Assembly: GCA_024408505.1 (NCBI GenBank)
Contig: JAKSUZ010000008.1
Coordinates: 1-54,964 of the forward strand
DNA from: Bacilli bacterium
Lineage (GTDB): Bacteria; Bacillota_I; Bacilli_A; RFN20; CAG-826
DNA: 54,964 bases
Direction: 5' to 3'
Shown piece after piece: positions 938 through 16,067 of this stretch (position 1 is its first letter; each line of letters starts with the position of its first letter). Both the position numbers and the translations under genes were made by a program. The notes below the pieces were generated by a model. The model had not been told where the DNA came from, made no database searches, and saw only the letters and a list, made by a program, of their open reading frames with translations.

Positions 938-1050
938 TGGTGGAGTCGAGGGGGACAACTGACCCCTCGACCCTTTTGTTACCTTTTTAATACCTTTTAA
1001 TACTTATTCAATATAAAAGAGTAGAAATTAAATACAGAAAGCAGGGGCAA
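938..1050 (-). repeat. 113-bp cassette-end repeat, copy 1 (ssrA 3'-end duplicate)
   Basis: First of three near-identical 113-bp copies. It spans the last codons (PAFCI) of the upstream lipoprotein gene, its 3' UTR, a hairpin (CGAGGGG / CCCCTCG around a 9-nt loop) and, at 938-950, a near copy of the tmRNA 3' end. On the minus strand this end reads CTCGACTCCACCA, with one change relative to tmRNA (GGC to GAC). Beyond it lies unrelated flanking DNA with a terminator, as expected for the outer boundary of an insertion. Confidence 0.85.
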
Positions 1051-2230
1051 TAGGGTAAGCGAAGGCGCAGGCATAGCGGGTATCTACCTCACCATCGATA
1101 CCCACATTCCATGAATAACTCGAGCCGGTTATACTAGGTGACCTGAGCCAAAAGCCCGAACCGCACCCAGCGATGCTTGAATTATATCCAGCGTAACTAT
1201 ATCCGGAACCGCAGGCAGTATCAGTTATATCAATGCTATTAGTTCTCGCTCCAACCGTACCTTTTACCTGTTGTTTAATTCTTATAGGGTCGGCTTCTTC
1301 AGGTTTAGCGTTTTTATAATATTCATAGGCTTCCCCTTTTTCAGCATAATCTATTTTCTTATTCATTTCATTAGCACTAAGCAAGAAAAGTTCATCATAC
1401 ACATTAGTTTCAACCCAACTCCCTGTAGTTTTATGGTTAACCTTCTTTTTAGCAATTTTTAATACACTCCTAAGGTCATTAGGCAACATATCTAATACTG
1501 ATTGACTACGGCTTGATTTTGTAGCACTATCCTTTTCATACCACATTAAATCATCATTTTCGTAACCTACAAGGTTTTTACGAATAGTAGAATTAAGGTA
1601 ATCAAAGTTACAATCTTCACCATCGGTATCATCTTCCCATAAACTTGCTAAAGAATATCCATTTTCATCACTAATTAAATCAGCAAATTCAAAAGTAATA
1701 CCGGCTTTACCAGAACCATCTGCTAAATCATCGTGATTAAAATCAATAATTCTTACGGTATGACTAAAACTTTGACCTTTTAGTGTTACTTCCTTAGTAT
1801 TGCCGACACCAAAGAATTCATCTGCTCTACCCGTTTCGGCTATTTCAGCAATTTCATCCCAACTTGAACCTTCCAAAGATTTAGAATAAGATGACCCTGT
1901 AACAGAAATTGTTAAATTACCAATAATAGGAACAAAAAGATTACCATTAACGTATTTACACTCAACAGTTTCATCCGTCCCTGTCTTCTTAATAGAAATA
2001 TCAGATTTTAAAGGAACTTTGAATGGTTTGTTAACTTCAAAATGGAATTCTTTACATAAAGATAGGGTAGGGTCAACAGCAGGAACTGTAACGCTGGTAA
2101 CTTCTTTATCACTTTCATCATAGGCTTTACAATCCGTACAATTGAAAGTGATTGTGTAAGTGGGTTCTTTACTGCCCTCACAACTTAAAAGCATCATAGG
2201 TGCTAATAATAAAATTAGTTTTTTCTTCAT
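1028..2230 (-). CDS. surface lipoprotein with C-terminal DUF6273-like domain (cassette 1)
   Basis: 400 residues. It begins with a lipoprotein signal peptide, lipobox LLSC with Cys17, so it should be anchored on the outer face of the membrane. Residues about 25-115 form a beta-rich domain resembling the N-terminal half of the lipoprotein trio at 26-28.5 kb. Residues about 120-400 form the DUF6273-like module, with FWLRSP about 40 residues before the invariant end PAFCI. The segment VTLKGQ...HDDLADGSGKAG is almost identical to that of the 448-aa protein at 4773-6119, which suggests recent duplication or gene conversion. The start has no Shine-Dalgarno sequence; a TATAAT lies 8 nt before the ATG. 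Ligand or function unknown. Confidence 0.85.
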   Translation of the reverse strand: MKKKLILLLAPMMLLSCEGSKEPTYTITFNCTDCKAYDESDKEVTSVTVPAVDPTLSLCKEFHFEVNKPFKVPLKSDISIKKTGTDETVECKYVNGNLFVPIIGNLTISVTGSSYSKSLEGSSWDEIAEIAETGRADEFFGVGNTKEVTLKGQSFSHTVRIIDFNHDDLADGSGKAGITFEFADLISDENGYSLASLWEDDTDGEDCNFDYLNSTIRKNLVGYENDDLMWYEKDSATKSSRSQSVLDMLPNDLRSVLKIAKKKVNHKTTGSWVETNVYDELFLLSANEMNKKIDYAEKGEAYEYYKNAKPEEADPIRIKQQVKGTVGARTNSIDITDTACGSGYSYAGYNSSIAGCGSGFWLRSPSITGSSYSWNVGIDGEVDTRYACAFAYPIAPAFCI

Positions 2231-2238
2231 ACGTCAAC

Positions 2239-2275
2239 ATTATATAACATAAACGCACTAAAAACCTTTCTTAGT
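2239..2275 (-). promoter_or_regulatory. cassette 1 promoter with overlapping inverted repeat
   Basis: On the minus strand TATAAT (2244-2239) ends 8 nt before the ATG, which places the transcription start at or next to the start codon. Upstream, CACTAA...TTAGTG arms form an imperfect inverted repeat over the -35 area. The same arrangement is kept in cassette 3 (6128-6165). A leaderless mRNA controlled by a repressor is inferred. Confidence 0.5.
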
Positions 2276-2336
2276 GAAAGAAGAAGCCAATTCCTTTAAA
2301 CAGCCGATTGTTACTAATAAAAACAAGAAATAAAAA

Positions 2337-2359
2337 CGCACTAAACGATTTTTAGTGCG
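2337..2359 (-). terminator. cassette hairpin terminator, copy 1
   Basis: Arms CGCACTAAA and TTTAGTGCG around a 5-nt loop form a 9-bp stem. On the minus strand it is followed by TTTTTATTTC. It lies about 40 nt beyond the 113-bp repeat of the preceding cassette, so it should end the transcript entering from cassette 2. Confidence 0.65.
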
Positions 2360-2401
2360 AATTGGGATTTTTGTTCGATATATACTGAATTATTTTTAAA
2401 A

Positions 2402-2514
2402 TGGTGGAGCCGAGGGGGACAACTGACCCCTCGACCCTTTTGTTACCTTTTTAGTTCCTTTTAATACTTATTCAATATAAAAGAGTAGAAATTAAATACA
2501 GAAAGCAGGGGCAA
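2402..2514 (-). repeat. 113-bp cassette-end repeat, copy 2
   Basis: Same 113-bp unit as at 938-1050, with about three differences. Its left end (2402-2415) is an exact 14-bp copy of the ssrA 3' terminus (CCTCGGCTCCACCA on the minus strand). It contains the CGAGGGG/CCCCTCG hairpin and the last codons of the 329-aa lipoprotein. It separates cassette 2 from cassette 1. Confidence 0.85.
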
Positions 2515-3481
2515 TGTTCAAAGCAGCATTATAAACATAAAAACGACTAGGAAGACCATATTCCCCAATCATCCAAGCATCATCATTCGTTCTTTCTTCG
2601 CTCGGCATAGCTGCCATAGGAGATCTTAACCAATAATAGCCACCATCATACGATTTTTTATTGTAACCAGCATAACTTATTCCTGGTAATCCAGTATGTT
2701 CAGTGCTTTCATAATATTTAGTATCAAAAATTTCTGTGTATTGTCTAATTGATCTAGCAGAATATCCAACTACTTGTTGTTTAACCCTAATTTCATCATT
2801 ACCATATGGTGAATCAGTTTTATAATATGTATATGCATGAAGACTTCGTTCCATATACATCTCACTGTAACCCATTTCTTTTGGAGTTAATAAAAATAAT
2901 GAATCGCAAAAATCGGTTTCTTCCCACTTGCTTCCGTCTTCAGTTGCTTTAAATATATTGACAACCTTTTTTGCTGGTTTAATTGCTCTTTTTAAACCGC
3001 TAGGCAACATATCAAAAATTGAACAATTATATATGGAGGATTCTTCTTCTTTTTTGTTTTGATTAATGGTATACCAATCAAAAGAGGTTTGGCGTTCATC
3101 CCCAACTAACCCTACTAAATTTTTACGAATGGTCGACACTAAATAGTTAGAGGTGGCAGTATCTAGATTATCTTTAGTAACATCATTCCAAACAGTAGCT
3201 AGGGAAAAACCATTTTTATCAGAAATAACATTAGCAAACTCCCATGTGGTATGAATTTTATTCCCCTGATTATCAATATCTTCGTCAACTCCAATCAAAC
3301 GAACTTTATGCATGATACCGTTAACCATTACTTCTTTTTCCATTCCGATATCTGAAGTAGTTAAAGAATCAATAAAATTAACATCATTAAACCACCCATT
3401 ATCGTTTTGACAACTCGTTAACGGAAATATAGCAATCAATGCAATTAAAATTCTTTTCATACTAAAACTCATGTTAATCAT
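2492..3481 (-). CDS. DUF6273-like lipoprotein (cassette 2, second gene)
   Basis: 329 residues from the first ATG, or 322 if translation starts at Met8 (3460), which gives the usual MKR signal-peptide start. The lipobox is LTSC. There is little linker: the DUF6273-like module fills most of the protein. It carries YYWLRSP and ends in NIAPAFCI. The first ATG overlaps the stop region of the upstream gene (3474), and no Shine-Dalgarno sequence is seen, so translation is probably coupled to that gene. The C-terminal part differs strongly from the other paralogs between WLRSP and PAFCI, the stretch expected to form the exposed face. Confidence 0.8.
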   Translation of the reverse strand: MINMSFSMKRILIALIAIFPLTSCQNDNGWFNDVNFIDSLTTSDIGMEKEVMVNGIMHKVRLIGVDEDIDNQGNKIHTTWEFANVISDKNGFSLATVWNDVTKDNLDTATSNYLVSTIRKNLVGLVGDERQTSFDWYTINQNKKEEESSIYNCSIFDMLPSGLKRAIKPAKKVVNIFKATEDGSKWEETDFCDSLFLLTPKEMGYSEMYMERSLHAYTYYKTDSPYGNDEIRVKQQVVGYSARSIRQYTEIFDTKYYESTEHTGLPGISYAGYNKKSYDGGYYWLRSPMAAMPSEERTNDDAWMIGEYGLPSRFYVYNAALNIAPAFCI

Positions 3482-4493
3482 TATAGTAATATGTTTGATC
3501 TGCGGTTGGTTTTCCTACAAAACTTCCGCCCGTTTCTGCAAACATATCTATAAGCGCATAATCAACTTTGGTTTCATGCGGGCAAACGAAAAACTCATGT
3601 TGCCCACTATTTTCAGAAATTTTTAATTTTTTACATCCGCTAAACATACTCCCATAACATGCTCCTACTAATTTTTTAGCAGGAAGTTTGGGAGCTGTAA
3701 CTATATTAGTGCATCCTTGAAACATATAATAATAACAACCATGAGTCAACGTTTCAGCTGGTAAAATGGTAGGTATTTGCTTTAAACCTCTACAATTAGA
3801 AAACATGTTATGGTAACAATACTCTCCCAAAGTAGTAGCGGGTAAAGCGGGGGCAATTTCTAAAAAATGGCAATCTTTGAACATAGAGGCGTAGCACAAC
3901 AACTCTAATGTAGTGGCAGGCAGAACAGGCGCATTGGCTAAGGCATTACAACCAGAAAACATTTCAAAATAACAATATGGTGCAAGAGTGGTAGCTGGTA
4001 ATTCAGGTGAAGTTTTTAAATGAGTGCACCCAGAAAACATTCCAGAATAGCAAGATGGTGCTAATTGCATATTTGGCAACGATGGAGCGCTTACTAATGC
4101 CGAGCAATTTTCAAATAATCTTAGATAACAGGATGCATATAGGCTTTTATAATTAATCATACTATCAACATTACCACTAGCGGCAATTTCGCCTGACATC
4201 GTGAAGTAGAAATAATTGTCCTCATTAGAAAGGGTATCTTTAAGGTTATGTACATAAATCTTTTCGCCTTTATTAAGAGTAATAGCATCACCAGACCAAT
4301 CATTCCATTTATTGTTATCACGAGAAATTTGAATTTGAATATTAGTCACGTGTACATTTAAACCATATCCAACTGTCGAATTATCCACGTTAGCTTCAAA
4401 ACATAACGGAGTCTCTTTATCTGTCGCCTTATTACAATTTGCTAAAAACAATACTGCCATTAACGGCATTACTAATAAACTTAGTTTTTTCAT
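3474..4493 (-). CDS. lipoprotein with leucine-rich-type CY-MF-GC repeats (cassette 2, first gene)
   Basis: 339 residues. Signal peptide with lipobox FLANC. Residues about 125-300 hold seven repeats of about 23 residues with the pattern LPATTL...CY..MF.GC..L...P. This is a BspA-like leucine-rich variant common in secreted proteins of gut bacteria. The regular Cys pairs in each repeat may form disulfides. A beta-type domain (about residues 30-110) precedes the repeats. It is the only gene of the array without a DUF6273 end and shares its cassette with the gene that overlaps its stop codon. A Shine-Dalgarno sequence (AGAGGTTTC) precedes the start, unlike cassettes 1 and 3. Confidence 0.8.
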   Translation of the reverse strand: MKKLSLLVMPLMAVLFLANCNKATDKETPLCFEANVDNSTVGYGLNVHVTNIQIQISRDNNKWNDWSGDAITLNKGEKIYVHNLKDTLSNEDNYFYFTMSGEIAASGNVDSMINYKSLYASCYLRLFENCSALVSAPSLPNMQLAPSCYSGMFSGCTHLKTSPELPATTLAPYCYFEMFSGCNALANAPVLPATTLELLCYASMFKDCHFLEIAPALPATTLGEYCYHNMFSNCRGLKQIPTILPAETLTHGCYYYMFQGCTNIVTAPKLPAKKLVGACYGSMFSGCKKLKISENSGQHEFFVCPHETKVDYALIDMFAETGGSFVGKPTADQTYYYND

Positions 4494-4618
4494 GAATGAA
4501 ACCTCTCTTTATTCAAATTTTACTTATATGAAAAAAAAAGTCAAAATTTTTCTTAGTGGAAAAGTATCACAAATTCTATAAACATTCGATTGCTACTAAT
4601 AAAAACGAGAAATCAAAA

Positions 4619-4641
4619 CGCACTAAACGATTTTTAGTGCG
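4619..4641 (-). terminator. cassette hairpin terminator, copy 2
   Basis: Same CGCACTAAA/TTTAGTGCG stem as at 2337 and 6225, followed on the minus strand by TTTTGATTTC. It lies about 40 nt beyond the 113-bp repeat of cassette 3. Confidence 0.6.
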
Positions 4642-4682
4642 AATTGCCCATATATACGATTATTACTAATCTTTTTTAATTC

Positions 4683-4795
4683 TGGTGGAGCCGAGGGGGA
4701 CAACTGACCCCTCGACCCTTTTGTTACCTTTTTAATACCTTTTGATACTTATTCAATATAAAAGAGTAGAAATTAAATACAGAAAGCAGGGGCAA
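4683..4795 (-). repeat. 113-bp cassette-end repeat, copy 3
   Basis: Third 113-bp copy, one or two bases different from the others. Its left end (4683-4696) is an exact copy of the 14-nt ssrA terminus. It marks the junction of cassettes 3 and 2 and covers the last codons of the 448-aa lipoprotein. Confidence 0.85.
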
Positions 4796-6119
4796 CGGCA
4801 CACTCGCGAGTGGTAACTTGGCCGTAACCAAGAGCTCCTCCGGTTAAAACACGAAACGCATCGGTAAGGAAATTCATAGCAGGCGAACGAAGCCAAAAAC
4901 TCACTCCATCACCGCCATCGACTATCTTTTTAACTCGATAAATATTATCTTCATCCGTATCTCCACCGTGTCCTTCATAATATTCATAAATACCATTAGT
5001 TTCATTAGGAGTAACCGGTCTGCTATCAGGATTATGAATTTCATGATACGCTAATGAGAAAAGTTTAGTTTCAAAGGATGTAGCCGTAAATTTCCCCCGG
5101 GTTTGAGTTTCACTAACTCCCACTAATTTATTAACTGATTTAATTATCCCTTCTTCACTTAAATCATCAGGAAGCATGTTGATAACACTTGTAGTACCTT
5201 CAGTCTCATTATTTAAAAAATTGTTAAGGATGGATTTACGATAATCGCTGTTATTTGGAGTGTCCCATTTAGTAGTGTATGCTTCTTCTTTACTATCTTT
5301 CGTAATCACATCCGCAAATTCAAAAGTAATACCAGCCTTACCAGAACCATCTGCTAAATCATCGTGATTAAAACCAATAATTCTTACAGTATGGGGAAAA
5401 TCTTGACCTTTTAGTGTTACTTCCTTAGTATCGCCAACATCAAAACATGTATCAGCAAGACCTGCCTTTGATAATATATTAATTTCTGACCATTCATAAG
5501 ATTCAAGACTTTCTCTTGGAGTATTTTCTGCTACTGCTTTAATTACGCAAACATTGTCTTGAGCAACTTTAATTATTATTTCTTTTTCTATAAGATTGAA
5601 ACTATATGATTGAGCCTCGCGTATTTCTACGTCCCCATCAAGAATTGGAAAATAGCCCTGGTTTGACTTGATTGTTAAAGTAACCTCTACCCCAGCAGGG
5701 ATTAGGAATGATGAGTTTGGTTGGTATTTAGCTCCCTTATAGGATAATTTACAAGATTGACTAAATGCAGAAAAATAAACCGTTGCGGTTGCTTTAGGAG
5801 TATAAATTGCATAAACCGTTAAATCGCTAGTGATTTTATAATCATTAATCGGAATTTGCGTATCTTTAGTGAGACCCCAACCACTAAAATTAAAATAATC
5901 AATATCTTTTGTCGCAGTTTGTTTAGTTATATTAGGAATTTCACTAAATAAAGTACCATCTTTAACATCAATCGATGAAGAAGCCCCACTATCTAATGTC
6001 CCACCATTCGCATTAAAAGTTACAGTAAAGGTATCTGGTTCAGGTTTATCTCCACCACCTTTATTACATCCAATAAGAGAAATCACCATTAATGGGGCGA
6101 CAAATAAAATTTTCTTCAT
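4773..6119 (-). CDS. lipoprotein with InlB-type repeat and DUF6273-like domain (cassette 3)
   Basis: 448 residues. Lipobox LIGC. Residues about 30-108 form one Listeria/Bacteroides-type (InlB B) repeat, VTFNANGG...GW...YAIYTP. Residues about 110-198 form a second beta domain also found in the 597-aa lipoprotein at 14274-16067. Residues about 205-448 are the DUF6273-like module with FWLRSP and the end AVAPAFCI. Proteins of this layout are usually surface-exposed; the substrate is unknown. TATAAT ends 8 nt before the ATG with no Shine-Dalgarno sequence. This is the cassette next to ssrA and so, in an insertion model, the most recent arrival. Confidence 0.85.
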   Translation of the reverse strand: MKKILFVAPLMVISLIGCNKGGGDKPEPDTFTVTFNANGGTLDSGASSSIDVKDGTLFSEIPNITKQTATKDIDYFNFSGWGLTKDTQIPINDYKITSDLTVYAIYTPKATATVYFSAFSQSCKLSYKGAKYQPNSSFLIPAGVEVTLTIKSNQGYFPILDGDVEIREAQSYSFNLIEKEIIIKVAQDNVCVIKAVAENTPRESLESYEWSEINILSKAGLADTCFDVGDTKEVTLKGQDFPHTVRIIGFNHDDLADGSGKAGITFEFADVITKDSKEEAYTTKWDTPNNSDYRKSILNNFLNNETEGTTSVINMLPDDLSEEGIIKSVNKLVGVSETQTRGKFTATSFETKLFSLAYHEIHNPDSRPVTPNETNGIYEYYEGHGGDTDEDNIYRVKKIVDGGDGVSFWLRSPAMNFLTDAFRVLTGGALGYGQVTTRECAVAPAFCI

Positions 6120-6127
6120 ACGACAAC

Positions 6128-6165
6128 ATTATATAACATAAAAGCACTAAAAACCTTGCTTAGTG
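6128..6165 (-). promoter_or_regulatory. cassette 3 promoter with overlapping inverted repeat
   Basis: TATAAT at 6133-6128 (minus) lies 8 nt before the ATG at 6119. Arms CACTAA and TTAGTG flank the likely -35 region. The block from here to 6250 is clearly similar to the leader of cassette 1, so cassettes share both ends and differ in the middle. Confidence 0.5.
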
Positions 6166-6224
6166 AAAAATTATTTAAATCCTTTAAATAGTCGATTATT
6201 ACTAATGAAAACGAGAAAATAAAA

Positions 6225-6247
6225 CGCACTAAACGATTTTTAGTGCG
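6225..6247 (-). terminator. terminator now serving ssrA, supplied by cassette 3
   Basis: Arms CGCACTAAA/TTTAGTGCG with a 5-nt loop are followed on the minus strand by TTTTATTTTC. It begins 42 nt beyond the mature tmRNA 3' end, so it should end the ssrA transcript. The same hairpin occurs in the same position in each cassette. Confidence 0.7.
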
Positions 6248-6289
6248 AATTGACTTATATCTACGATTATTACTAATCTTTTTTTCTTC

Positions 6290-6690
6290 TGGTGGAGCCG
6301 AGGAGAATTGAACTCCTGTCCAAGACGGACCACATAAGAACATTTCCAGTTTATCTAGCACTTACTTTACCTAGACCTATCTACTAGCGGAATCAATCTA
6401 GGCTAGATTATTTAGCTTCGGGATAGATTTATAATCATCACCCACCCTACAAAACCTTGTTATGACACTGATCCTAAGCGTGAGGTTCTACAAACCTTAG
6501 GGAGCGTGCTCTCCGAACTGGGTTCGGCCTAATAATTAAGGGCTAAATTAAGCAAGAGCAAGTTGTGCATTGCTCGTACGAGCATTCACAAATGAATAAT
6601 TTTTGCCAGTTATTTTCTGTTTGGTATTTAAGTTTACCAGGCTACTGTATTTCTTACACAGACTCATCCTGTCGAAACCAGGACGGCCCC
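6290..6690 (-). ncRNA. ssrA: tmRNA (transfer-messenger RNA)
   Basis: 401 nt. It rescues stalled ribosomes and tags the unfinished protein for proteolysis, in partnership with SmpB. The 5' end (from 6690) reads GGGGCCGTCCTGGTTTCGAC and the 3' end CCTCGGCTCCACCA. The seven-bp acceptor stem GGGGCCG/CGGCTCC closes with one G-U pair. The T-arm is GGAG-TTCAATT-CTCC. The tag frame runs from 6607 to 6548: GKNYSFVNARTSNAQLALA followed by TAA, giving a tag with an extra leading Ala supplied by the tRNA-like part. It ends in the hydrophobic LALA expected for ClpXP/FtsH recognition. CCA is encoded. The 3' end is the anchor of the cassette array to its left. Confidence 0.95.
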
Positions 6691-6715: not shown

Positions 6716-6763
6716 GGCGGTAATCTAAAGAACAATACCCCTTACGGAGTGATATACATTATA
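6716..6763 (-). promoter_or_regulatory. ssrA promoter and 5' leader (direct repeat A)
   Basis: On the minus strand TATAAT (6763-6758) sets a start near 6751, giving a leader of about 60 nt before the mature 5' end; RNase P should remove it. This 48-bp segment is repeated with 44 of 48 identities at 8210-8257. Downstream of it the leader can form a small hairpin (CCAAACATTTGG) flanked by ACCG and GGGG. Confidence 0.65.
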
Positions 6764-6790
6764 CACTATGTTAAATAAAAGCAAATTTAT

Positions 6791-6895: not shown

Positions 6896-8089
6896 TTATT
6901 CTAGTAAAAAATCAAAAATATTAATTACTTTATATCCATTATCAAGATGATTAAATATGGTCTTATCCATAGTAATTATTACTTTTTCATATCCATCATC
7001 TAAACCTTTAAGCGAATTGATTTCGCGTTTTAAAGTATCTGGGTTTTCAATGGTTGAAGCGATTTGGATATATGAAATAGTTTTATTGTGTTTTACCACA
7101 AAATCTATTTCTTTATTTTCGTTCTTTCCAACATTTACCAAATAGCCTCGACGAAGCAATTCGAAATAAACAATGTTTTCAAGCGTATGACCGATTTCCA
7201 TTTGGTTAAAATTCATTTTTTGATTTCTTAAACCGATGTCTACTGCATAATACTTATACAAAGTTTTTAAATACTCTTTGCCTTTGATATCATATCTATT
7301 GACCTTATAGAACAAAAAACCATCACTAAGATATTTTAAATAATTGGACACCGTTTCATGATTTATGGTTTTATAGTTGTTTGATTTGAGTGTATTGGTA
7401 ATTTTATTAGGTGAAACAACCGATCCGATTTGAGAGTAAATTAAATTAATTAATGAATCAAAAAGTCCGATGTTTCTAATATTAAAGCGCTCAATAATGT
7501 CTCTATAGGCAATTGTTTCATTAATCATCTTCAAATATTCAATCTTTTCTTCTTCATTGTTTAGCTGTGTTAAATAAGGAAGACCACCATAGCGAACATA
7601 TTCTTTAAATACCGATTCCTTATCTCCGCCATAATATGAATAAAATTCTTTGAATGACAATGGAAATATTTTAATTTCAATACCCCTACCACGTAATTTA
7701 GTATTTATTTCCGTAGAAAGTAATTTGGAATTAGAGCCGGTGATATATAAATCAAGATTGTAATCATTAATTAATCCATTTAAAACGTCTTCAAAATTAT
7801 CAATAAGTTGAATTTCATCAATAAAAACGTAATATTTTTTATCATCATGGATGTTAGAAACAATGTAATCATACAATTTATTTTCGTTTCTAAGTGTTTT
7901 AAAAGTATGAGATTCTAGATTAACTTTAATTATGTGATTTTGTTTAACTCCTAAGTTAATTAAATAATTATAATAAATTCTATTAAGTAAAAAAGATTTA
8001 CCAGATCTTCTCATTCCAGTAATTATCTTTATAAGTTCTTTATCCTTATAAGCAATTATTTTTCTTAAATATTCATCTCTTTTAATCAT
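6896..8089 (-). CDS. DUF4143-type AAA ATPase
   Basis: 397 residues. N-terminal AAA_14-type ATPase: Walker A GMRRSGKS at residues 25-32, Walker B YVFIDEIQ near residue 92, and TGSNSKLLS (sensor). A middle winged-helix-like segment (about 200-280) is followed by the DUF4143 C-terminal part with ENIVYFELLRRGY...EIDFVV, a restriction-endonuclease-like trace. Members are widespread in gut bacteria, often as isolated, mobile genes; their cellular role is not established. The gene stands alone between two copies of the ssrA leader and is followed by a candidate small RNA. Confidence 0.85.
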   Translation of the reverse strand: MIKRDEYLRKIIAYKDKELIKIITGMRRSGKSFLLNRIYYNYLINLGVKQNHIIKVNLESHTFKTLRNENKLYDYIVSNIHDDKKYYVFIDEIQLIDNFEDVLNGLINDYNLDLYITGSNSKLLSTEINTKLRGRGIEIKIFPLSFKEFYSYYGGDKESVFKEYVRYGGLPYLTQLNNEEEKIEYLKMINETIAYRDIIERFNIRNIGLFDSLINLIYSQIGSVVSPNKITNTLKSNNYKTINHETVSNYLKYLSDGFLFYKVNRYDIKGKEYLKTLYKYYAVDIGLRNQKMNFNQMEIGHTLENIVYFELLRRGYLVNVGKNENKEIDFVVKHNKTISYIQIASTIENPDTLKREINSLKGLDDGYEKVIITMDKTIFNHLDNGYKVINIFDFLLE

Positions 8090-8209: not shown

Positions 8210-8257
8210 GGCGGTCACCCAAAGAACAATACCCCTTGCGGAGTGATATACATTATA
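8210..8257 (-). repeat. second copy of the ssrA promoter/leader (direct repeat B)
   Basis: 44 of 48 positions match 6716-6763, including TATAAT (8257-8252). No tmRNA body follows. On the minus strand the leader continues with a different hairpin in the same place (CCGTTAAAAAACGG), then GGGGG...CCCCC arms ending near 8169. A short independent RNA of about 80 nt is possible. It starts seven bases after the stop of the broken Fic gene. Confidence 0.75.
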
Positions 8258-8263
8258 CAATAG

Positions 8264-11829: not shown

Positions 11830-12795
11830 ATGAAGAAAATAAGTTTACTATTACTACCGTTTACTATGTTTTCTCTTTTGACTAATTGTAATAAAGCTGA
11901 TAATAGGAAATGGTATGAACATGAGGATTGGTGGAAATATTGCTCTAATGGAGTAGAAAACGTTCAAGCAATTGAAGAAGATATCGGTAAAGAAGTAAAC
12001 TTAACCGTCAATAATCAGATTCATAAAGTAAGACTTATAGATATTGATCATGATACTTTATCAAGCGGAATGGGTAAAGCACACTGCACCTTTGAATTTG
12101 TTAATTTACTATGTGACGATATGGGTTGCTCATTAGCAACAGTGTGGAATTGGAAAGATGGTGGCTCATCTAAGAATTATGATTTTCTTAATTCTAATTT
12201 AAGAAAGGCGCTTGATGGTAATGGCGAAGGCGAACTTTGGTGGTATCGAAGAGGTAGAGTCGAAAGTGAACAGACAAAGGGTACTGATTATAAGAATAAA
12301 TGCGTGTTAGACATGCTCCCCAGTGACTTGCAAGATAATCTTAAGGAAGTAAAAAAGCCAATTGAATTATCTAAAGATGGGAAAACATATGCAATCGATG
12401 AAGAATCTTATGTAACCAAAGTATTTTCTCTTTCATACCGAGAAATAACTGAAGACTCAGGTCAATTCTGGCAACCAGATGAAGGCACAACTTATAAATA
12501 TTATCTAGGAGATAAAGACAAGGCAAAATCTAAACGTGTTCATATACAAATACTTAAAGAACACTATGCGAGCGCACCAACAATAGAAGATGGTTATTAT
12601 AATGAGGCTAAAAATCATGCTGGCTATTATACTGAAGCTACAGAAATAATTGTCGGTAATTATTATTGGCTACGTTCACCTCATCTTAATAGCACAGATA
12701 AGGCAGGAGCATGGAAAATCACCACCGATGGGGTTCTTATAAATGAATTTATCTATAAACAAGCGGTTGCTGTCGTACCCGCATTTTGTATTTAA
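11830..12795 (+). CDS. DUF6273-like lipoprotein (outside the ssrA array)
   Basis: 321 residues. Lipobox LTNC. Almost the whole protein is the DUF6273-like module, with VNNQIHKVRLIDIDHD, YYWLRSP and the end VVPAFCI. It is a paralog of the cassette proteins, but its 3' end lacks the 113-bp repeat and it is on the opposite strand. TATAAT near 11802 and AAGGAAGG before the ATG form a standard promoter and ribosome binding site. The next gene starts 15 bp downstream, so the two form an operon. Confidence 0.8.
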   Translation: MKKISLLLLPFTMFSLLTNCNKADNRKWYEHEDWWKYCSNGVENVQAIEEDIGKEVNLTVNNQIHKVRLIDIDHDTLSSGMGKAHCTFEFVNLLCDDMGCSLATVWNWKDGGSSKNYDFLNSNLRKALDGNGEGELWWYRRGRVESEQTKGTDYKNKCVLDMLPSDLQDNLKEVKKPIELSKDGKTYAIDEESYVTKVFSLSYREITEDSGQFWQPDEGTTYKYYLGDKDKAKSKRVHIQILKEHYASAPTIEDGYYNEAKNHAGYYTEATEIIVGNYYWLRSPHLNSTDKAGAWKITTDGVLINEFIYKQAVAVVPAFCI

Positions 12796-14273: not shown

Positions 14274-16067
14274 TCAGATACAGAAGGCAGGGGCTATTGC
14301 TCCGGCTGTAGCATAAGCAAAACCGTTAGCAGTTGAAATATTACCATTGTAATAAACATACCAAGCTTTGTCATCATCACTCGTGAAAGGTGAACGGAGC
14401 CAGTAGAAACCACCGCCAGAAGTACCGCTTTTCATATTATATCCAGCATAATTAGCAACATTGCCCCGATATGCTTGTCCTTGCTCTGAATCAATCGTGG
14501 AAGTTATTGTGCATTCCTCGTTACCCTTTACTTGCTTCTTAACACATATCACTTCTGAAGTAGCAGAATTTTCATAATAAGCATATGGTGAAGTGTGTTC
14601 TTTAGATTCCTGATGATCGTTTTCTTTACCCATCTCTCTAGGCGATAACAAAAATAACTTATCGTAGACACCAATAGTATCAATTGTCTTATCTTCCCAA
14701 ACTCCTAGATCGTTGTTATAGCAAGCAACATATTTTTTAGGAGCTTTTAAAACACCATCGGCTGTTAATTCGCTTGGTAACATATTAATTACAGAATCAT
14801 CGTACTCAGTGGACCAAGTTATTCCACCCTTCTTCGCCCAATAGGAAACTTTACCAGGGTCATTAAGAACTTTGCGGATAGAAGTAGTTAAATAGTTATG
14901 ATTAGAGGTAGTGGTTGCTGATGTGTCATTCCATTGAGCCGCAAGTGAATAACCATTTTTATCACTGATTAAATCTTTAAATTCAAAGGTAATACCAATA
15001 GGATTACCATCTTTATCAACGTCATGATCAAATCCAATAATTCTGACTGTTTGGTATGGTTCGCCTTCAGTAATTTTATCAGTACCATCACTAGCGGTGT
15101 CTTGATGTGTTAATTGCACTCTCTTTGTGCAAAGTTTTTCATCAAGCGGACTATAAATTGTAAATAATTCATCGGCTAATCCCATCTCAGATATTTGACT
15201 AATTTGTGACCATGTATAATCATCTAACTTTTCCTTATGCGCTTCTGAAATAGCCTTGATAGTACAGGTGCTGCCTTCCGCAACATTAACTATTACTTTT
15301 TGTTCATTAGGTGTAAAGCGTTTTAAAGATTCTGGCGCAGTAACGGTTAAACCATCTTTAAATACAGGCAAATGACCTGTTGTTGGTTTTATCGTTAAAG
15401 TGACATCCATTCCTGCTGGAATAGTAAAAGATCCTGTATCACCCGGACTAAGCTCTTTACCGTTATAACACAAATTACAATTTTCACTGTATCCGGAGAA
15501 TTTAACATAGGCGGGAACAACTGGAGTGTATATCGCATATACCGTTATGTCTCCTTGAATTGTATAATCATTTTCACTAGAAAGAGGTATTTCACCGGTT
15601 TTAGTTAATGCCCAACCTATGCAGGAATATTGTCCTGGATCTGTAATGGTAACCTCCGGCGTATTAATCGTAGAAAATTTATCCCCATAATTAACCTTAA
15701 TTGTAGAACCACTTCCAATAGTTCCCTTATCTTTTGGGTCGAAGGTAACAGTATATTGACGAGGTTTAATGTCATAATCCGCTTTTAAAGTAACATCACC
15801 AGTAATAGGGGTATTATCAAAATCAAAGGGCTCATTATTTAATAACCATTCACCAGTGAAGGTGTAAGTCTTTTCTTGAGTAGGCTCACGAGTAGGAGTT
15901 TTAGTCGGCTTCATCGCAGTCTTACCATCTTCAACTTTTTGTGATTCGACAAATGAACCGCCATCTGTATCAAAATTTACAATGTGATAAGTAGTATTTT
16001 TACTACCACAACTCGCTAAAAGCGATACAGCTGTAACTGGTATTATTAATATTCTTAATTTATTCAT
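14274..16067 (-). CDS. lipoprotein with two InlB-type repeats and DUF6273-like domain
   Basis: 597 residues. Lipobox LASC. InlB B-type repeats at about residues 27-100 and 105-182, then the same middle beta domain as in the cassette 3 protein (about 183-272), then the DUF6273-like module with FYWLRSP and end IAPAFCI. It has the architecture of the cassette 3 protein with an extra repeat, yet lies 8 kb from the array, without the 113-bp repeat. The last codons (PAFCI) keep the same sequence with one change. Likely surface-exposed; ligand unknown. Confidence 0.85.
   Translation of the reverse strand: MNKLRILIIPVTAVSLLASCGSKNTTYHIVNFDTDGGSFVESQKVEDGKTAMKPTKTPTREPTQEKTYTFTGEWLLNNEPFDFDNTPITGDVTLKADYDIKPRQYTVTFDPKDKGTIGSGSTIKVNYGDKFSTINTPEVTITDPGQYSCIGWALTKTGEIPLSSENDYTIQGDITVYAIYTPVVPAYVKFSGYSENCNLCYNGKELSPGDTGSFTIPAGMDVTLTIKPTTGHLPVFKDGLTVTAPESLKRFTPNEQKVIVNVAEGSTCTIKAISEAHKEKLDDYTWSQISQISEMGLADELFTIYSPLDEKLCTKRVQLTHQDTASDGTDKITEGEPYQTVRIIGFDHDVDKDGNPIGITFEFKDLISDKNGYSLAAQWNDTSATTTSNHNYLTTSIRKVLNDPGKVSYWAKKGGITWSTEYDDSVINMLPSELTADGVLKAPKKYVACYNNDLGVWEDKTIDTIGVYDKLFLLSPREMGKENDHQESKEHTSPYAYYENSATSEVICVKKQVKGNEECTITSTIDSEQGQAYRGNVANYAGYNMKSGTSGGGFYWLRSPFTSDDDKAWYVYYNGNISTANGFAYATAGAIAPAFCI

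Follow-up and report, generated by a model that had tools for sequence, protein, structure and literature searches.

A cluster of lipoprotein genes behind the tmRNA gene of an uncultured gut bacterium of the Bacilli probably represents three small integrative units that were inserted in tandem at the 3′ end of this gene. The cluster occupies positions 938-6289 of a stretch of 54,964 nucleotides, which was analysed as a whole and is referred to here as the window. This assessment covers the reading in its entirety, which we consider likely: single-gene elements lacking an integrase would insert site-specifically at the 3′ ends of RNA genes and accrete there by means of a recombinase acting in trans.

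Putative integrative units behind the tmRNA gene

The presumed insertion target is the tmRNA gene ssrA (6290-6690; ARAGORN and Rfam RF00023, 105 bits), whose 3′ end CTCGGCTCCACCA was located at 6290-6302 in a 13-mer scan. The gene is encoded on the minus strand, as are the units and all features described with them below. Each unit in the window comprises a terminator-bearing leader, one or two lipoprotein genes, exactly one of which encodes a DUF6273 domain, and a putative attachment (att) site of approximately 90 bp. Unit 1 (4683-6289, 1607 bp) directly follows the tmRNA gene, with its leader terminator (6225-6247) located about 42 bp beyond the CCA of the tmRNA. It encodes a lipoprotein of 448 aa (4773-6119) with Pfam matches to DUF6273 and, just under the cut-off, to List_Bact_rpt, and its site (4683-4772) ends with CTCGGCTCCACCA. 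Unit 2 (2402-4682, 2281 bp) begins with the same stem-loop (4619-4641) and encodes two lipoproteins, one of 339 aa with internal repeats and no Pfam match (3474-4493) and one of 329 aa with a DUF6273 match scoring exactly at the Pfam cut-off (2492-3481), followed by the site (2402-2491). Unit 3 (938-2401, 1464 bp) is the most distant from the tmRNA gene and comprises a leader terminator (2337-2359), a gene for a DUF6273 lipoprotein of 400 aa (1028-2230; Pfam) and a site (938-1027) that ends with CTCGACTCCACCA, the tmRNA variant of the sister species G002 and G004. All three DUF6273 proteins end with APAFCI. Behind the last site the native flank resumes with a terminator (912-927) and a gene for a protein of 156 aa (379-849), a homologue of which is found near the tmRNA site of G002.

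Two further observations concern the surroundings of the array. The promoter-like region upstream of the tmRNA gene is duplicated (6716-6768 and 8210-8262, 91% identity over 53 bp) and flanks an AAA_14/DUF4143 gene (6896-8089); an insertion distinct from the array is likely on the upstream side of the tmRNA gene. The window also encodes two additional DUF6273 proteins with the C-termini VPAFCI and APAFCI (11830-12795 and 14274-16067, respectively), and neither gene is followed by a site resembling an RNA end.

The repeat and the putative attachment site

The original prediction had drawn attention to a 113-bp repeat with three copies that are far more alike than the coding sequence next to them, and our comparison bears this out. 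The copies (938-1050, 2402-2514 and 4683-4795, minus strand) align without gaps and differ pairwise at only 2, 3 and 3 positions, whereas the adjoining 100 bp of upstream coding sequence show identities of only 30-44%. It had further been noted that the minus-strand end of the repeat imitates the 3′ half of tmRNA. Indeed, each copy ends with CTCG(A/G)CTCCACCA, which apart from the A/G position equals the tmRNA 3′ end, and the 13-mer of the tmRNA end occurs four times in the window, once in the tmRNA gene and once in each copy, versus no occurrence in 100 shuffles. All three copies are located on the strand of the tmRNA gene and are lined up behind it.

The first 23 bp or so of the repeat correspond to the last codons (PAFCI) and the stop codon of the DUF6273 protein. 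The codons are thus part of the 113 bp, as had been stated, and yet they do not belong to the site but to a conserved protein end: PAFCI terminates many DUF6273 proteins in the source genome (G000), including those encoded outside of arrays, and sites that follow other payloads lack these codons. The site proper is therefore the stretch of about 90 bp behind the stop codon, which is made up of an accessory part, rich in AT and containing short direct repeats, and a core that copies the RNA 3′ end. A fusion of the payload to the site can be discarded as a mechanism, because the same sites also close units with payload genes that lack the PAFCI codons.

A hairpin reminiscent of folded recombination sites such as attC was also part of the original prediction. 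The GAGGGG/CCCCTC stem is present and strong in all three window copies (CGAGGGG-TCAGTTGTC-CCCCTCG at 947-969, minus strand). However, it is missing from the tmRNA-type site of G002 and from one site of the tRNA-Pro type, and in tRNA-Thr-type sites the left arm varies without compensation, that is, without covariation. In addition, five of six sites contained none of the attC R boxes GTTRRRY/RYYYAAC, and one site of the tRNA-Pro type contained an isolated GTTRRRY. On the grounds of missing hairpins, uncompensated changes in the left arm and absent boxes, we reject attC-like folding as a conserved feature of these sites. The hairpin arms may instead represent two half-sites of the core, albeit ones that are not kept in all sites. 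The accessory part of the window site contains three imperfect direct repeats, GTATTAAAA, GTATTAAAA and GTAACAAAA (974-1003, minus strand). The best direct repeat was matched by 16 of 500 shuffles for the window copy, by 9 of 500 for G002 and by 4 of 500 for one copy of the tRNA-Pro type, while in the other two sites tested it was reached by many shuffles and was not significant for the tRNA-Thr type. Judging from sequence, these repeats could possibly be arm-type sites of an integrase, a reading we treat as a lead only, because they are only modestly better than shuffles for the tmRNA type and non-significant in two of five sites.

Arrays behind tRNA genes and in sister species

The same design recurs behind tRNA genes of the source genome, where four target RNA genes were found in total, namely the tmRNA gene and the genes for tRNA-Thr(UGU) on contig C50, tRNA-Thr(CGU) on C8 and tRNA-Pro(CGG) on C12. 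Together they account for about 20 units, which measure approximately 1.1-3.7 kb and hold one gene or a few, and each unit ends with the 3′ end of the RNA of its own array. Five units with the ending ..GTTAGTCGGCACCA are found behind tRNA-Thr(UGU), a run of eight tRNA-Thr-type sites is located on C5, two more such sites follow tRNA-Thr(CGU), and three copies of ..CACTGTTCCGACCA are present behind tRNA-Pro(CGG). The tRNA-Thr 13-mer TTAGTCGGCACCA occurs 17 times in the genome, always on the arrays of C50, C5 and C8 and in a single orientation, versus zero for the reversed control. The ends of tRNA-Ile and tRNA-Val, which are encoded in the same cluster, had no copies outside their own genes in the genus loci retrieved. 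In G000 and G004, twenty sites of the tRNA-Thr type have up to about 90 bp in common, largely irrespective of the payload. A terminator like that of the tmRNA-type units was found in only some of the tRNA-Thr-type leaders. Directly behind tRNA-Pro(CGG), ahead of the first unit of its array, we noticed a pair of IS3-like transposase genes, recognised by inspection of the sequence (L027, 12460-13885). Reversed tRNA-Pro-like 3′ ends were also seen just behind DUF6273 genes on G000:C45 (L028, around 5299) and G004:C4 (L034, around 47).

Occupancy of the targets varies between species. The genomes compared are all draft assemblies with a completeness of 66-90%, and the number of units directly behind the tmRNA gene is three in G000, one in G002 and zero in both G001 and G004; the contig of G003 breaks near the 3′ end of the tmRNA gene, which a repeat would be expected to cause. 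In G002 the single unit carries an unrelated gene and is followed by native DNA that includes the homologue of the 156-aa gene of the window. The terminator located about 42 bp after CCA starts this unit as it does all three units of the window. Behind tRNA-Thr(UGU), the native flank is common to G003 and G004, which differ in their units. The outermost site of the window reads CGACTCC, as do the tmRNA genes of G002 and G004, versus CGGCTCC in the window tmRNA gene and the inner sites, and the 5′ strand of the tmRNA shows the matching change (GGGGCCG versus GGGGTCG). This pattern would fit a scenario in which the outermost site is the displaced original tmRNA end and the present end was brought in by an incoming unit, with an ancestral state that is not certain, because the tmRNA gene of G001 likewise reads CGGCTCC.

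The central claim of the original prediction, a recombination site carrying the tmRNA 3′ end, is thus well supported by the units directly behind the tmRNA gene, by the other RNA ends at tRNA-Thr and tRNA-Pro and by the variable occupancy in sister species. Where sites elsewhere stand next to unrelated genes and lack an ssrA-like end, their ends match the neighbouring tRNA gene. A search for the sites in 224 genomes of the family returned clear matches only within the genus. For integrases of other genera of the family, homologues were detected in 51 of 224 genomes, and several of them adjoin tRNA genes; no tandem repeats of a tRNA end were present near them in the stretches read. Many genomes, mostly of genus g3 of the same family, also encode stand-alone integrases of about 330-440 aa with varied neighbours and no repeat array nearby (L144-L158). 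In 30 DUF6273 loci of other genera, represented by short flanks only, no tRNA genes were found.

Payload genes

Besides DUF6273 lipoproteins, the units encode a range of other functions, including GH43 and polysaccharide lyase 8 enzymes, proteins with BspA-type repeats, a flavin reductase and a glycosyltransferase. Fic proteins among the payloads are SoFic-like according to PADLOC, the AAA_14/DUF4143 ATPases belong to the candidate defence family PDC-S01, an NTP_transf_8 nucleotidyltransferase protein occurs together with a small partner, and the payload of G002 is a weakly SieB-like protein. Some payload genes are oriented opposite to the site, and therefore the site is not simply a 3′ untranslated region of the payload.

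Proposed mechanism and source of the recombinase

Under the accretion model that we favour, a trans-acting recombinase, most likely a tyrosine integrase from an element outside the assembly, would join the site of a circular unit either to the end of an RNA gene or to a site already present there. The incoming unit would rebuild the end of the RNA gene while the displaced end would shift to the far side of the unit, and in tmRNA-type units the terminator about 42 bp after CCA would substitute for the native one. Repeated insertion would then lead to stacked units, which may still be mobile today. If so, the arrays would provide a testable model of how integration at tRNA and tmRNA ends can be repeated without harm to the RNA, in the case of tmRNA because each unit brings a replacement terminator.

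The only proteins of G000 with a Phage_integrase domain (PF00589) are XerC, encoded beside topA, and XerD, encoded beside deoB, and G003 and G004 likewise have just two Phage_integrase genes each. No recombinase was found within or near any array. Resolvase-type serine recombinase genes were absent from the array of the window and from the array-bearing genomes G003 and G004, and their absence from the latter two rules them out as a common engine. Separately, a small serine resolvase gene was observed behind near-identical DUF6273 C-termini in two species (L029, 1608-2195; G002:C2, 10585-10989). The sole extra integrase in the genus is a protein of 389 aa encoded after an Arm-DNA-bind_4 protein on a small contig of G001 (C27, L141), with no recognisable site beside it. 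Neither the 113-bp unit nor the core patterns had a match in collections of phages, plasmids and viral contigs. A helper element outside the assembly is the likeliest source of the recombinase, because an integrase is absent from several genomes, though drafts of this completeness could miss one.

These results also bear on how the units might move in other ways. Following an old integrase that created the first sites, they could have been moved mainly by RecA-type homologous exchange or gene conversion between the 90-bp sites, with no dedicated recombinase acting today. The lack of an integrase in the array-bearing assemblies would agree with this, the sites are long and similar enough, and the IS3-type element together with contig breaks at sites indicates a repeat-rich region. 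We nevertheless regard it as unlikely, as it leaves unexplained the correspondence between the sites and the RNA gene that precedes their array, the targeting of several RNA genes and the independent single insertions, for example that of G002, whose left half differs. Within the accretion model, units are probably shuffled by homologous exchange between sites as well. Even less probable is that the host proteins XerC and XerD serve as the integrase, as is the case with dif-like modules. They are the sole tyrosine recombinases of G000, and the two genes each in G003 and G004 would be in line with this, but inspection of the sites revealed no evident 11-6-11 layout resembling dif, which itself was not located, and showed that sites differ between RNA targets. 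The sites also contain long accessory parts, which Xer systems do not usually need.

The remaining explanations do without a DNA recombination site. In one of them, the repeat would act at the level of RNA, as a tRNA-like processing or stability signal at the 3′ end of the mRNA. Its ability to fold and its location after the stop codon of every window gene would agree with this. We regard it as very improbable, given that genes run opposite to their site in several units and that some sites lack a hairpin, and it offers no explanation for the match to the neighbouring RNA gene. In the other, a DUF6273 gene would simply have been duplicated locally together with its 3′ flank, with gene conversion homogenising the copies. 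This could account for a 184-bp stretch with 82% identity in two of the three window genes and for the similar leaders. We practically dismiss it in view of the payload diversity, because unrelated genes precede the same site in G002 and in other arrays, and because every site contains the end of the RNA gene upstream of it.

Returning to accretion with a recombinase in trans, we tentatively consider an extended version of it, a dedicated cassette system of these Bacilli with a non-integron origin, in which tRNA and tmRNA 3′ ends would form the platform for insertion, individual genes would bring a matching site, and a single resident or shared recombinase would gather them and swap them between species, so that they form a store of genes for surface proteins, glycan enzymes and toxin- or defence-like functions. 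This extension remains rather doubtful.

Comparison with known systems

Integrons are the textbook route by which bacteria stack and swap single genes. Like integron cassette arrays, the arrays described here consist of single genes with a site, show one orientation of the sites and carry varied accessory payloads. Unlike integrons, they have no attI, no attC boxes and no conserved foldable site, their core is taken from a host RNA gene, and no IntI integrase was found in the drafts, which are 66-90% complete. They thus resemble an integron-like store of genes at the ends of RNA genes, in which no integron machinery was found. If the arrays are active, a gut lineage with a small genome would match the outcome of integrons by using sites of its own RNA genes, without an integrase of its own.

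Cis-mobilizable elements (CIMEs), for example those of streptococci, have kept their attachment sites and lost the genes for integration and transfer, and they stack by site-specific recombination. The units share with them the flanking sites and the lack of integration and transfer genes. In most descriptions, however, a CIME is related to a known ICE or IME, whereas no parent element was found for the units described here, which comprise about one gene and reach about 20 copies per genome.

Genomic islands at tRNA and tmRNA genes, as collected by Islander, rebuild the target RNA gene and leave its displaced 3′ fragment at the far end, and they are inserted by tyrosine integrases that are usually self-encoded (PMC4383910). 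For tmRNA, tRNA-Thr and tRNA-Pro, we likewise found an intact RNA gene and the displaced 3′ fragment at the far end; in contrast to such islands, the units encode no integrase. The DUF6273 domain, which is C-type-lectin-like, is known from targets of diversity-generating retroelements (PMC10743442), and the payloads have this domain in common with them. A diversity-generating retroelement was ruled out, as no reverse transcriptase (RVT_1) was found in G000.

In Dehalococcoides, many elements are arranged in tandem behind ssrA, where they were inserted in the T-loop part, and a copy of the 3′ end of ssrA delimits each of them (PMC3146451). Many of these islands have a serine recombinase module (DsiB/DsiA), and some lack an integration module and were proposed to be cis-mobilizable (PMC3146451). 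The array in the window is similar in that several elements follow one another behind ssrA and are bounded by copies of its 3′ end. It differs in the size of the units, which are about 1.1-3.7 kb here, in the absence of a recombinase from any array, and in the additional use of tRNA-Thr and tRNA-Pro as targets in the same genome. A literature search of limited reach did not turn up any account of arrays of this kind with DUF6273 payloads. The closest precedents are the CIMEs and the ssrA islands that Dehalococcoides carries in tandem, and the class of element as such is already known, because tandem elements behind ssrA, some of them without an integration module, occur in Dehalococcoides. New are the single-gene size, the simultaneous use of several RNA genes, the absence of a recombinase and, for a small genome, the number of units.
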